From Candidatus Bathyarchaeum sp. (lineage in GTDB: Archaea; Thermoproteota; Bathyarchaeia; Bathyarchaeales; Bathyarchaeaceae), in assembly GCA_026014565.1 (NCBI GenBank), contig JAOZIB010000014.1, positions 1 to 64,000 of the forward strand: 64,000 bases of DNA, read 5' to 3'. The position numbers and the translations under genes are program-made. The notes below the pieces were generated by a model. That model did not search any database, had not been told where the DNA came from, and saw only the letters and a list, made by a program, of their open reading frames with translations. This document shows positions 54,546 through 57,512 of this stretch, piece after piece (position 1 is the first letter of the stretch; every line of letters begins with the position of its first letter).

Positions 54546-54848
54546 TTATCGAATCAGCATTGGAATGCTGCGGTCTTCAGTTAATTGTAGGACTTCATCG
54601 ACTTTGCTGAAGTATTTGAGAACAGTTTTTCCCTTTTCAGTTATTGCATAACGGACTTTTGTTTTGTTTCGTTTCTTGACGGTGATTTGTTCTTCAACTA
54701 AATTTTGTTGAATAAGAAAATGTAGAGTACCTTTCAGGACACTGGAGTTCACGTTAGCTTTGTACATAATGTGGGTAAGTTTCATTGGTCCATGTTGTGC
54801 CATGACTTTGACGATGTCGATGTACATTTCCATTTTAGATCTTCGCAT
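54546..54848 (-). CDS. Winged-helix transcriptional regulator
   Basis: A 100-residue protein with an archaeal winged helix: HGPMKLTHIMYKANVNSSVL (about 19-38) and the wing KVRYAITEKGKTVLKYF (about 65-81). It may regulate genes nearby; no operator was assigned. ATG start. Convergent with the PKD gene. Confidence 0.8.
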   Translation of the reverse strand: MRRSKMEMYIDIVKVMAQHGPMKLTHIMYKANVNSSVLKGTLHFLIQQNLVEEQITVKKRNKTKVRYAITEKGKTVLKYFSKVDEVLQLTEDRSIPMLIR

Positions 54849-55203: not shown

Positions 55204-55977
55204 TTATGAATAAAATGAGCCAATTACTTGCATTGGTTTGTTAACTGCACTCAAAAGTTGATTTAAAGCATTTTTCGACACCGTGACCAAAACAGCAGTT
55301 GCAGGACCTGCAGACTTTTTTGCTTCATTTTCAGTTAAATCTAAGTTGTAACTTAATCCACAATCATTAGACAGAACTTTTACTTCATGCAACAGTCCAT
55401 GAGAACCAACAGGAACAAGCTCATGAACGAAATCAAACGTCATCAGCTCTATCACGTCGGTTAAATCTACAATTTTGCCCTGTTTTTCTGCAGGCAAAAC
55501 TTCATCTTTTACACTTGGTTGACCAATTGCAACAATCAAATCTTCAGATTTAGACAACCCAATTTTCAAATCATTTTTTGGGGCTAAACCAACAACTGTG
55601 ATTCCGATGCCCGTTTGCTCGACTTCAATAGTTTTTTCCATGCTTCCAATTACAGGTAAACTATCATCTAACTGAGCAAGTTCAACCGCTTTTTTTATTC
55701 CTCTAACAATTTCAAATCCTGTAGGATCGGGTTCAACACCTAAAGTGTCGGTTAAACAAACTGGTGTTGCCCCAACAGCCATAACTTCCATTAAAGCCAC
55801 CCGCGCAGTAAACCGACCCAAAGTGTAACCGGTGACTTTCACTTTGTCCAAAGGTTTGGGTCCAATTCCACCTGCGGAATCACACCCAACAACCATAACT
55901 TGGTCATTATTGATCTCAAAAACTGAGACATCACGACCAGTTTTAATGGTTTTCGGACAAAACGAACAGGGGGTCAT
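55204..55977 (-). CDS. PurM/AIRS-superfamily kinase, probable alpha-ribazole kinase (CblS-like)
   Basis: A 257-residue protein: VVGCDSAGGIGPKPLDKVKV (about 29-48), ARVALMEVMAVGATPVCLTD, TGIGITVVGLA (about 122-132), VKDEVLPAEKQGKIVDL, VPVGSHGLLHEVKVL and KSAGPATAVLVTV. This is an AIR-synthase-like fold; CblS, the alpha-ribazole kinase of Listeria and Geobacillus, belongs to this superfamily to my knowledge. The gene overlaps by 4 bases (ATGA) an ECF S-component of CblT type, which supports salvage of alpha-ribazole for cobamide synthesis. The assignment to CblS rests on this context plus the superfamily and was not tested. Confidence 0.6.
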   Translation of the reverse strand: MTPCSFCPKTIKTGRDVSVFEINNDQVMVVGCDSAGGIGPKPLDKVKVTGYTLGRFTARVALMEVMAVGATPVCLTDTLGVEPDPTGFEIVRGIKKAVELAQLDDSLPVIGSMEKTIEVEQTGIGITVVGLAPKNDLKIGLSKSEDLIVAIGQPSVKDEVLPAEKQGKIVDLTDVIELMTFDFVHELVPVGSHGLLHEVKVLSNDCGLSYNLDLTENEAKKSAGPATAVLVTVSKNALNQLLSAVNKPMQVIGSFYS

Positions 55978-56492
55978 ATGTTAATCCTTCTGTTTCTAAC
56001 GGCAACGTATAGTATTACTGCAATTGCTGCGTTTAAACTAGCTGCCAACATTAACGGAACAGTTACGTTTGCAATTGTTGCCTCCCAGCCTATCGTTGGA
56101 ACCATAACTACTGAAAGAACAGTATTAATGACAACGGATACGACTGCGCCGGGTATGAATCCCCATTTCTTGTTTAATTTGTTTACTAGACCCATTGTGC
56201 CACCAGCAACTGCCATTCCTGCGGCAATAACATAATGCAAGGTACCTAAGGGGAACCCGTTTATCACTGAAGTCACTATGTGTCCAAGTCCAGTAATCAA
56301 CAAACCGTCAATTGCTCCAAAATATAGTGCTGCAAAAAAGCCGGGACTAGAGTCTAGAGCAATTGTTGATATGACAGGATAAGGGGTAATGAACGAACCA
56401 ATTACGCTAAGTGCAGTAAAGATTGATATTCGTGCAACGCGCAAAGCGCTTGATGCTCGTTTCTTGTTATTTGAATTTGATTGGGTGCTCAT
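55974..56492 (-). CDS. ECF transporter S component, probable alpha-ribazole transporter (CblT-like)
   Basis: A 172-residue membrane protein from the ATG at 56492, after AAGGA. About six helices. The segment IALDSSPGFFAALYFGAIDG, then GLGHIVTSVINGFPL, is the pattern of S components annotated as CblT. Energy would come from a shared EcfAAT module not in this window. It is translationally coupled to the AIRS-type kinase gene and divergent from an RHH regulator gene. Confidence 0.7.
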   Translation of the reverse strand: MSTQSNSNNKKRASSALRVARISIFTALSVIGSFITPYPVISTIALDSSPGFFAALYFGAIDGLLITGLGHIVTSVINGFPLGTLHYVIAAGMAVAGGTMGLVNKLNKKWGFIPGAVVSVVINTVLSVVMVPTIGWEATIANVTVPLMLAASLNAAIAVILYVAVRNRRINI

Positions 56493-56558
56493 CTTTAGTT
56501 TTCCTTCTTGGTCGTTTGAAAGAAAAAAGAACAGATAAAAACCTTCGTTCATGTATTA

Positions 56559-56569
56559 CACTTGTAGTG
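56559..56569. promoter_or_regulatory. Possible RHH operator CACT-N3-AGTG
   Basis: CACTTGTAGTG is a short dyad between the divergent CblT and RHH genes and overlaps the likely TATA region of the RHH gene. RHH regulators bind short palindromes, so it could control both directions; arms of only 4 bases make chance possible. Confidence 0.35.
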
Positions 56570-56582
56570 CGAGTTGGTTTAA

Positions 56583-57512
56583 ATGGATGTAGTTAACGTT
56601 AGGTTGCCCAGCAATGTTGTAAAAGATTTGGAAAAACTAGCAAAACGCCACGATCTGAGCAGGTCAGAAGTCATAAGACAGGCATTGATTGTTTACATCC
56701 ATTTTGTGGAAAATGTTGGAACCTTACTGCGTCCAACAATATTCAGAGTCAAACCAGCTCAAATTTCCTATGTAACTAGGGGTGATGTTTCAATAATGAA
56801 AATGCCCACAGGTCATGCGATTGTTGTAGGTTCTTCTTCATCAGGGGGCGTTGGACCCAAACCTATGGACAAGATAAAAAGCAGTGGCAAAATAGTAGGG
56901 AAATTTCTAGCAAGAGTAGCATCAATGGACGTTGCAGCTACAGGGGCATTTCCTGTTTCAGTTTCAGTTACGTTGGGTGTCGAAAAAGAGCCCACGGGCA
57001 ACCAAATCATAGAAGGCATACAAAAAGAAATCCGAGGACTAGGCTTAGATCCCAACCAAGTTTTGAAGGAAAATACTGAAGAAAATTTTGAAACCATCCA
57101 AACAGGTGCAGGAATAACCGTTGTAGGCTTAGCAAACGAAGATGAACTAAGGCTCGCAAAAACTGTGCCCGGAGATTTGGTTGTTGCAATTGGTGAACCC
57201 AAACTAGGAGATGAAGTTATTCCGGCAGAAGCCAGAGGAGAAATTGCAAACCTTAAAGACGTAACAGCATTAGCTAGAAAAAAATACGTTCATGATATTG
57301 TTCCGGTTGGCTCCTTTGGCATTATTCATGAAGCAAAAATGTTGGCATACAGCATTGGACGGCAATTAAAAATCGATGAAACTACAAAATTGGATTTGAA
57401 CAAGTCTGCTGGACCGGCTACAGTGGTCTTAGCAACAGTAGACAAGAAAAAAGTAGATGAATTACAGTTTTTCATTAGAAAACCAATCAACGTGATCGGA
57501 GAAATAATGTAA
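56583..57512 (+). CDS. RHH DNA-binding domain fused to an AIRS-like (CblS-paralogous) domain
   Basis: A 309-residue protein. Residues 1-45 form a CopG/RHH domain (VNVRLPSNVVKDLEKLA, DLSRSEVIRQALIVYI). Residues about 75-309 repeat the fold of the adjacent kinase: IVVGSSSSGGVGPKPMDKIK, GAGITVVGLA, LGDEVIPAEARGEIANL, VPVGSFGIIHEAKMLAYSI, KSAGPATVVLATV. A shared ligand between the enzyme and the regulator is likely. It is divergent from the CblT/CblS-like operon over 90 bases. No such regulator is known to me. Confidence 0.7.
   Translation: MDVVNVRLPSNVVKDLEKLAKRHDLSRSEVIRQALIVYIHFVENVGTLLRPTIFRVKPAQISYVTRGDVSIMKMPTGHAIVVGSSSSGGVGPKPMDKIKSSGKIVGKFLARVASMDVAATGAFPVSVSVTLGVEKEPTGNQIIEGIQKEIRGLGLDPNQVLKENTEENFETIQTGAGITVVGLANEDELRLAKTVPGDLVVAIGEPKLGDEVIPAEARGEIANLKDVTALARKKYVHDIVPVGSFGIIHEAKMLAYSIGRQLKIDETTKLDLNKSAGPATVVLATVDKKKVDELQFFIRKPINVIGEIM

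Follow-up and report, generated by a model that had tools for sequence, protein, structure and literature searches.

The genomic locus of the RHH-AIRS fusion

The window, i.e., the 64,000-nucleotide stretch of DNA that was analyzed, comes from a 1.81-Mb genome (G000) of the archaeal class Bathyarchaeia, whose closest named relative is Candidatus Bathyarchaeum tardum. It contains a gene for a protein combining an RHH with an AIRS-like domain (93% identical to its counterpart in Ca. B. tardum), which is divergently oriented relative to a cblT-cblS gene pair, with a palindromic element lying in-between (Table 1). We place the start of cblT at 56,492 (MSTQ...) rather than at 56,552, since this is where its homologs begin and since the TATA box separates the two candidates. 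The cblTS genes encode a transporter and a kinase for alpha-ribazole (PMC6167548). Homologs of the CblS of the window occur in Listeria, Levilactobacillus, and Cytobacillus (31-35% identity); in Cytobacillus the gene follows that for an ECF S component as the last of a cobamide operon, and in Levilactobacillus it lies between genes for an ECF S component and an adenosylcobinamide-GDP ribazoletransferase. In other Thermoproteota, cblT-cblS pairs without the fusion adjoin genes for CobY-, CobS-, CbiZ-PgpA-, CbiB-, and CobD-like proteins. A winged-helix protein matching Pfam HTH_45 (Sso10a family: 52.3 bits against a cut-off of 60) is additionally encoded near cblS and occupies the same place throughout the genus.

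Table 1. Features of the window and of further loci considered in the analysis
Feature	Position	Strand	Remarks
Winged-helix protein near cblS	54546-54848	-	
cblS-like alpha-ribazole kinase	55204-55977	-	257 aa; CDSAGG (Asp33) intact
cblT-like ECF S component (alpha-ribazole transporter)	55974-56492	-	
Probable cblT TATA box, TTTTTAT	56535-56541	-	11 nt past the operator
cblT BRE (inferred placement)	within 56542-56547		
Putative operator, GTATTACACTTGTAGTGC	56553-56570		in the fusion-cblT interval; 12 nt separate its end from the fusion start codon
RHH-AIRS fusion (predicted regulator)	56583-57512	+	ATG start; 309 aa
c36 family	L110:4999-5592, L111:4474-5085, L114:3801-4379, L062:7668-8252		hydrophobic proteins of ~200 aa
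Conserved gene after c36 in many genomes	L110:5680-6225, L111:3817-4389, L124:2324-2866		~180 aa; MK.R.IKLTPE...
Operon of ECF S-like component, GHMP pantoate kinase, and pantetheine-phosphate adenylyltransferase	L035:3361-5447		convergent with the fusion; equivalents in 18 loci
Fusion divergent from two B12-binding-type radical SAM genes	L064:6950-9853		G092
Zinc-dependent dehydrogenase gene preceded by a perfect operator	L123, L132, L121, L138 (position ~1501 or 1721)		G043, G063, G039, G051

The N-terminus of the fusion (residues 4-36) is recovered by the Pfam RHH_1 profile (PF01402; E=1.5e-8; 34.7 bits against a cut-off of 20.5) and displays the conserved strand and SRSE-type turn of RHH domains, with N5, R7, S28, E29, and R32 being near-invariant among the fusions. 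The remainder (approximately residues 65-309) is a CblS-like AIRS module: the Pfam AIRS N-terminal domain falls on residues 72-154 with a score slightly below its cut-off (E=1.1e-4; 23.1 bits against 24), and BLASTP aligns the fusion with the neighboring CblS over 241 aa (46% identity; E=9e-71), a sharing of sequence far above chance. The predicted structure of the fusion, a model of moderate confidence (mean pLDDT 65) built from four sequences only, matches those of SelD, ThiL, PurM, and HypE with a probability of 1.00; its RHH part is of low confidence and is left out of the argument. With the fusion as the query, no third AIRS relative was found in this genome at E<=1. The sequence-only reading had claimed an RHH and an AIRS-like domain in a single open reading frame and five motifs common to the fusion and the neighboring kinase; the profile and BLASTP matches bear out the former, and all five motifs are seen in the alignment.

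Phylogeny and distribution

Among archaeal CblS proteins, 35 fusions form one clade in the phylogenetic tree (support 98/79), the position of one of them (G349), which lies on a very long branch, being less certain. The CblS of the window is not the closest relative of the fusion, pointing to an ancient duplication and fusion. The idea that the sensor derives from the very enzyme that it controls hence needs qualification: descent from the CblS family stands, whereas recent copying of the adjacent kinase does not.

In a survey covering only Thermoproteota genomes, the fusion was found in 36 of 257 Bathyarchaeia genomes, namely 35 of the 163 of the order and one of another order (G210; 47% identity), and in one genome of another class (G349; 31%). 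A search of genome contigs with the single protein matched only two near-identical genomes, and an alignment-based scan of viral contigs found no relative. CblS is present in 19 of the 257 Bathyarchaeia genomes, and co-occurs with the fusion in 13 of them (Fisher's test, 1.4e-8). In all 13, cblS lies at most ~4 kb from the fusion, for the most part within a divergent unit starting with cblT, consistent with the adjacency proposed from the window. That the fusion would always sit beside cblT/cblS did not survive the survey, as no CblS is seen in 23 of the 36 Bathyarchaeia genomes with the fusion (among them G036, whose contig breaks off within cblT). The fusion is thus found mostly away from cblTS, a distribution that does not refute a regulatory role since in most such genomes the predicted operator precedes either a gene of a family that we term c36 or a CobT-c36 pair. 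The arrangements seen are fusion with cblTS, fusion with CobT-c36-cblTS, and fusion with c36 alone. In one genome (G092), two radical SAM genes of the B12-binding type are oriented divergently from the fusion.

Loss of a kinase-invariant aspartate in the putative sensor

Bacterial and archaeal CblS, including that of the CblS/CblT systems of Geobacillus, Listeria, and Lactobacillus, show homology to the AIRS part of the fusion along its full length; the fusion differs from these in its RHH domain, its own operator, its separate clade, and the absence of an invariant aspartate. We compared residues across 34 Bathyarchaeia fusions, the fusion from the other class (G349), 22 archaeal CblS, and 3 bacterial CblS (Listeria, Cytobacillus, Levilactobacillus). 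In CblS, the CDSxGG motif always carries Asp33 (24/24, with the bacterial proteins among them), whereas every fusion has lost this Asp: 31 of the 34 Bathyarchaeia versions have Thr and 3 have Ser, with Thr also in G349 and Ser85 occupying the position in the fusion of the window. R15 is replaced by Gly and E64 by Asp in 33 of the 34, and S112 mostly by Asn; all 34 retain D16, D44, R59, E114, Q121, G191, and the AGP motif. The spacing of 17 between Asp16 and Asp33 equals that between D30 and D47 of Escherichia coli ThiL, and the equivalence of Asp33 and D47 rests on this spacing and the shared fold, the hhalign alignment of CblS with ThiL being weak and yielding no significant profile match. 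We take an Asp of this type to help hold Mg-ATP, and its loss makes the sensing of Mg-ATP less likely than that of a nucleoside. The uniform Thr or Ser at this position argues for a conserved new role rather than decay. A comparison of the two active sites for lost catalytic residues, as put forward in the sequence-only reading, hence comes out in favor of a sensor, and suggests that the AIRS part is kinase-derived rather than itself a kinase.

This bears directly on a bifunctional reading, in which the AIRS part would phosphorylate alpha-ribazole or another nucleoside while the RHH domain controls genes. A precedent exists in the archaeal riboflavin kinase-regulator RbkR, in which a DNA-binding domain of the HTH type is joined to an enzyme from the very vitamin pathway under its control, with the kinase activity kept (PMC8305020). 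The fusion is similar in joining a DNA-binding domain to a CblS-like enzyme of the vitamin pathway that it presumably controls, and differs in its PurM/AIRS fold, RHH domain, and missing catalytic Asp. Bifunctionality would account for the 23 fusion genomes without CblS, and most CblS-conserved residues besides Asp33 are indeed retained. However, Asp33 is gone in every fusion, with R15 and S112 altered too; intact CblS coexists with the fusion in 13 genomes; and CobT, present in 33 of the 35 fusion genomes of the order, already supplies alpha-ribazole phosphate. We hence regard continued kinase activity as improbable.

A conserved putative operator between the fusion and cblT

The regions upstream of the fusions share a dyad of the form GTATTAC-N4-GTAATAC, or a variant with CACTAC, which mostly ends 7-14 nt before the start codon. 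Generalized as RYAYTAC-N4-GTARTRY, it has a sole exact match in the genome of the window, namely the element between the fusion and cblT, and this conserved site supports the claimed tie of the fusion to cblT. Even with one mismatch permitted, only 0.29 matches are expected by chance in the window; genome-wide, the one-mismatch copies (9, versus 8 for the reversed pattern) are at background. A matrix built from the fusion upstream regions scores an operator above the 1% null in 27 of 33 fusions, these being its own training set, and no site above the cut-off was found at the other 6. The dyad is also present at the fusion of the other order (G210), and a diverged version of it is seen in G349 (score 9.8).

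The predicted regulon

An exact-pattern scan of the 163 genomes of the order uncovered further, unlinked operators in genomes with the fusion, many of them before c36. We then applied the matrix, trained on the fusion upstream regions alone, to other genes. All 22 c36 genes, which lie outside the training set, are preceded by a site, 18 directly and 4 via a CobT gene before them; in contrast, none of 20 other CobT genes has one, including two further copies in G088. This genome encodes three CobT proteins (C24, C58, C61), with an operator only at the one preceding c36. Additional sites occur before cblT in G089, G091, and G093, as against none in the 8 cblT upstream regions of fusion-free genomes. 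For an RHH transcription factor, a conserved palindrome is expected at its own and target promoters, and such a palindrome is observed here.

The c36 proteins occur in two genera, nearly always alongside the fusion: the family is carried by 21 of 35 fusion genomes versus 1 of 128 others (Fisher's test, 3e-16). We found no Pfam or PDB relative of c36, no Pfam ECF match, and a probability of only 1.8% for an hhalign match to the CblT alignment. We consider c36 a membrane protein and a candidate transporter of a lower ligand or corrinoid. It is followed in many genomes by a conserved gene coding for a ~180-aa protein without a Pfam match. One genome (G050, 82% complete) has c36 with a site, and the fusion was not found in it. 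The regulator, the operator, and the membrane protein often remain where cblTS has been lost, and one of the CobT copies would, in several genomes, come under the same predicted control.

Two further candidates were rejected as targets, with sites in 1 of 18 upstream regions of a pantoate-kinase operon and 1 of 11 of c6. The former operon, which is convergent with many of the fusions, encodes an ECF S-like component together with a GHMP pantoate kinase and a pantetheine-phosphate adenylyltransferase; upstream of it lies a conserved ACATTATAAACGGAATAC-like stretch, to which the matrix of the fusion gives only a weak score.

RHH domains are common among antitoxins, and weak antitoxin-family matches are found at the N-terminus of the fusion. 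These might be taken to mean that it is an ordinary antitoxin-like protein that is by chance a neighbor of cblTS, its AIRS domain having no regulatory role. The above contextual associations make this scarcely credible: the operator tracks the targets to unlinked loci, c36 is almost restricted to fusion genomes, and cblT lacks the site in fusion-free ones.

Perfect operators are additionally found before a zinc-dependent dehydrogenase gene in four genomes, in one of which (G039, 95% complete) the fusion was not found. In G043 and G063, and apparently in G039, the dehydrogenase is divergent from the archaeal riboflavin-pathway reductase (TIGR01508). These sites at a dehydrogenase/RibD-type reductase pair have no obvious fit with lower-ligand salvage, with a link between the supply of flavin and that of the lower ligand being possible. 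They raise the alternative of a genuine regulator whose ligand is the free base, a corrinoid, or an intermediate of the flavin pathway, the CblS homology reflecting no more than the scaffold; along with the pair in G043 and G063, the sites at the dehydrogenase in G051 and G039 and the fact that c36 is the sole target found in many fusion genomes speak for it. On the other hand, the targets, found in three arrangements, comprise CblTS and a CobT copy, which represent the two routes by which alpha-ribazole phosphate is obtained, as well as a membrane protein, and the sensor is homologous to a nucleoside-binding enzyme. On balance, we consider such a ligand unlikely. With a CblS homolog as the sensor and targets spanning both of these routes, alpha-ribazole or its phosphate would be the likeliest effector.

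Promoter geometry and the direction of control

Of 34 target promoters (cblT, CobT, c36), 33 have a TATA box of the CTTTTAT type that starts at a distance of precisely 11 nt from the operator, leaving space for the BRE; in the remaining one (G210) the best TATA score is at 10. G349 shows the same 11-nt layout with a weaker TATA-like stretch. Where a fusion has no divergent target, the TATA positions are scattered, with none fixed on that side, and the operator is nevertheless retained, which points to autoregulation.

The RHH proteins are most often repressors, a protein bound beside the BRE could block TFB, and the operator is positioned against the start at the fusion's own gene. The same regulator and regulon could accordingly operate by repression of the targets, with the ligand either releasing or engaging the repressor. 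This is a serious but rather unlikely alternative, given that the fixed 11-nt spacing is what contact with TFB or TBP would need and that archaeal repressors usually overlap the BRE/TATA or lie downstream (PMC5512572). The typical binding position of archaeal activators, in contrast, is directly upstream of the BRE (PMC5512572), and the fixed-distance site of the target promoters resembles those of Ptr2, EarA, and TFB-RF1 in this regard (PMC5512572), though the fusion belongs to another protein family and its activating role is predicted from spacing. The geometry favors activation of the targets over repression.

Discussion

The fusion, the loss of Asp33, the single clade, the operator, the regulon, and the fixed spacing are established at the level of sequence, and we infer DNA binding itself, the direction of control, the effector, and the substrate of c36. 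We propose that the fusion is an autoregulated transcription factor that uses a catalytically disabled CblS as its sensor and activates genes for the salvage of the cobamide lower ligand, a reading to which we assign a probability of about 0.6. The RHH domain would bind the RYAYTAC-N4-GTARTRY palindrome, and in the window a single shared operator would control both the divergent cblT-cblS operon, for the uptake and phosphorylation of the lower-ligand nucleoside alpha-ribazole, and the gene of the fusion itself. Target genes would be activated, probably via recruitment of TFB or TBP from an operator just upstream of the BRE; at its own gene, with the operator against the start, the protein would probably act as an autorepressor. 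Alpha-ribazole or its phosphate is the most likely ligand of the sensor. The factor, acting at this type of site, would control a second CobT gene and c36, a probable transporter, in related genomes.

A CblS-derived regulator of lower-ligand salvage is thus well supported by comparative genomics. The earlier proposal of an enzyme-derived, corrinoid-linked regulator was right in kind, given the Asp33 loss, the CblS clade, and the operator, but most genomes with the fusion lack cblTS and the predicted regulon is wider and more mobile than was supposed.

Several regulators offer partial parallels. In the ROK repressors (NagC, Mlc) and MocR/PdxR, the sensor derives from a kinase or another enzyme with catalysis lost; the fusion resembles them in its enzyme-derived sensor and differs in fold, DNA-binding domain, and pathway. 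NikR and similar RHH regulators have an N-terminal RHH domain, a C-terminal sensor, and a palindromic operator, with an ACT-type metal sensor; in contrast, the sensor of the fusion is a PurM-superfamily domain, and its operator has 7-bp half-sites with a 4-bp gap. The principle of an enzyme-derived sensor is already known, e.g., from RbkR (PMC8305020). In the literature searched, outside which most subscription journals lie, we found no description of an RHH-AIRS regulator or of an archaeal regulator of lower-ligand salvage, and so far as this literature shows, novelty appears to lie in the type of sensor, the class of ligand, and the operator. We would give even odds that this is the first transcription factor with a PurM/AIRS sensor and the first regulator devoted to the lower-ligand nucleoside of cobamides: a dead alpha-ribazole kinase that would read alpha-ribazole or its phosphate, activate cblTS, a duplicated CobT, and the c36 family, and outlast the kinase itself.

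The system indicates a new candidate transporter family in c36, and its predicted operator and regulon open the idea to direct experimental test. It would also offer a case of a pathway enzyme turned pathway sensor, with several of its gene arrangements still visible. Bathyarchaeia are abundant archaea of sediments. In one member of the class, lignin-derived aromatics are the substrates of a corrinoid-dependent methyltransferase system (PMC10989822). Given this abundance and the use of such methyltransferases, how these organisms acquire the parts of cobamides bears on carbon cycling.
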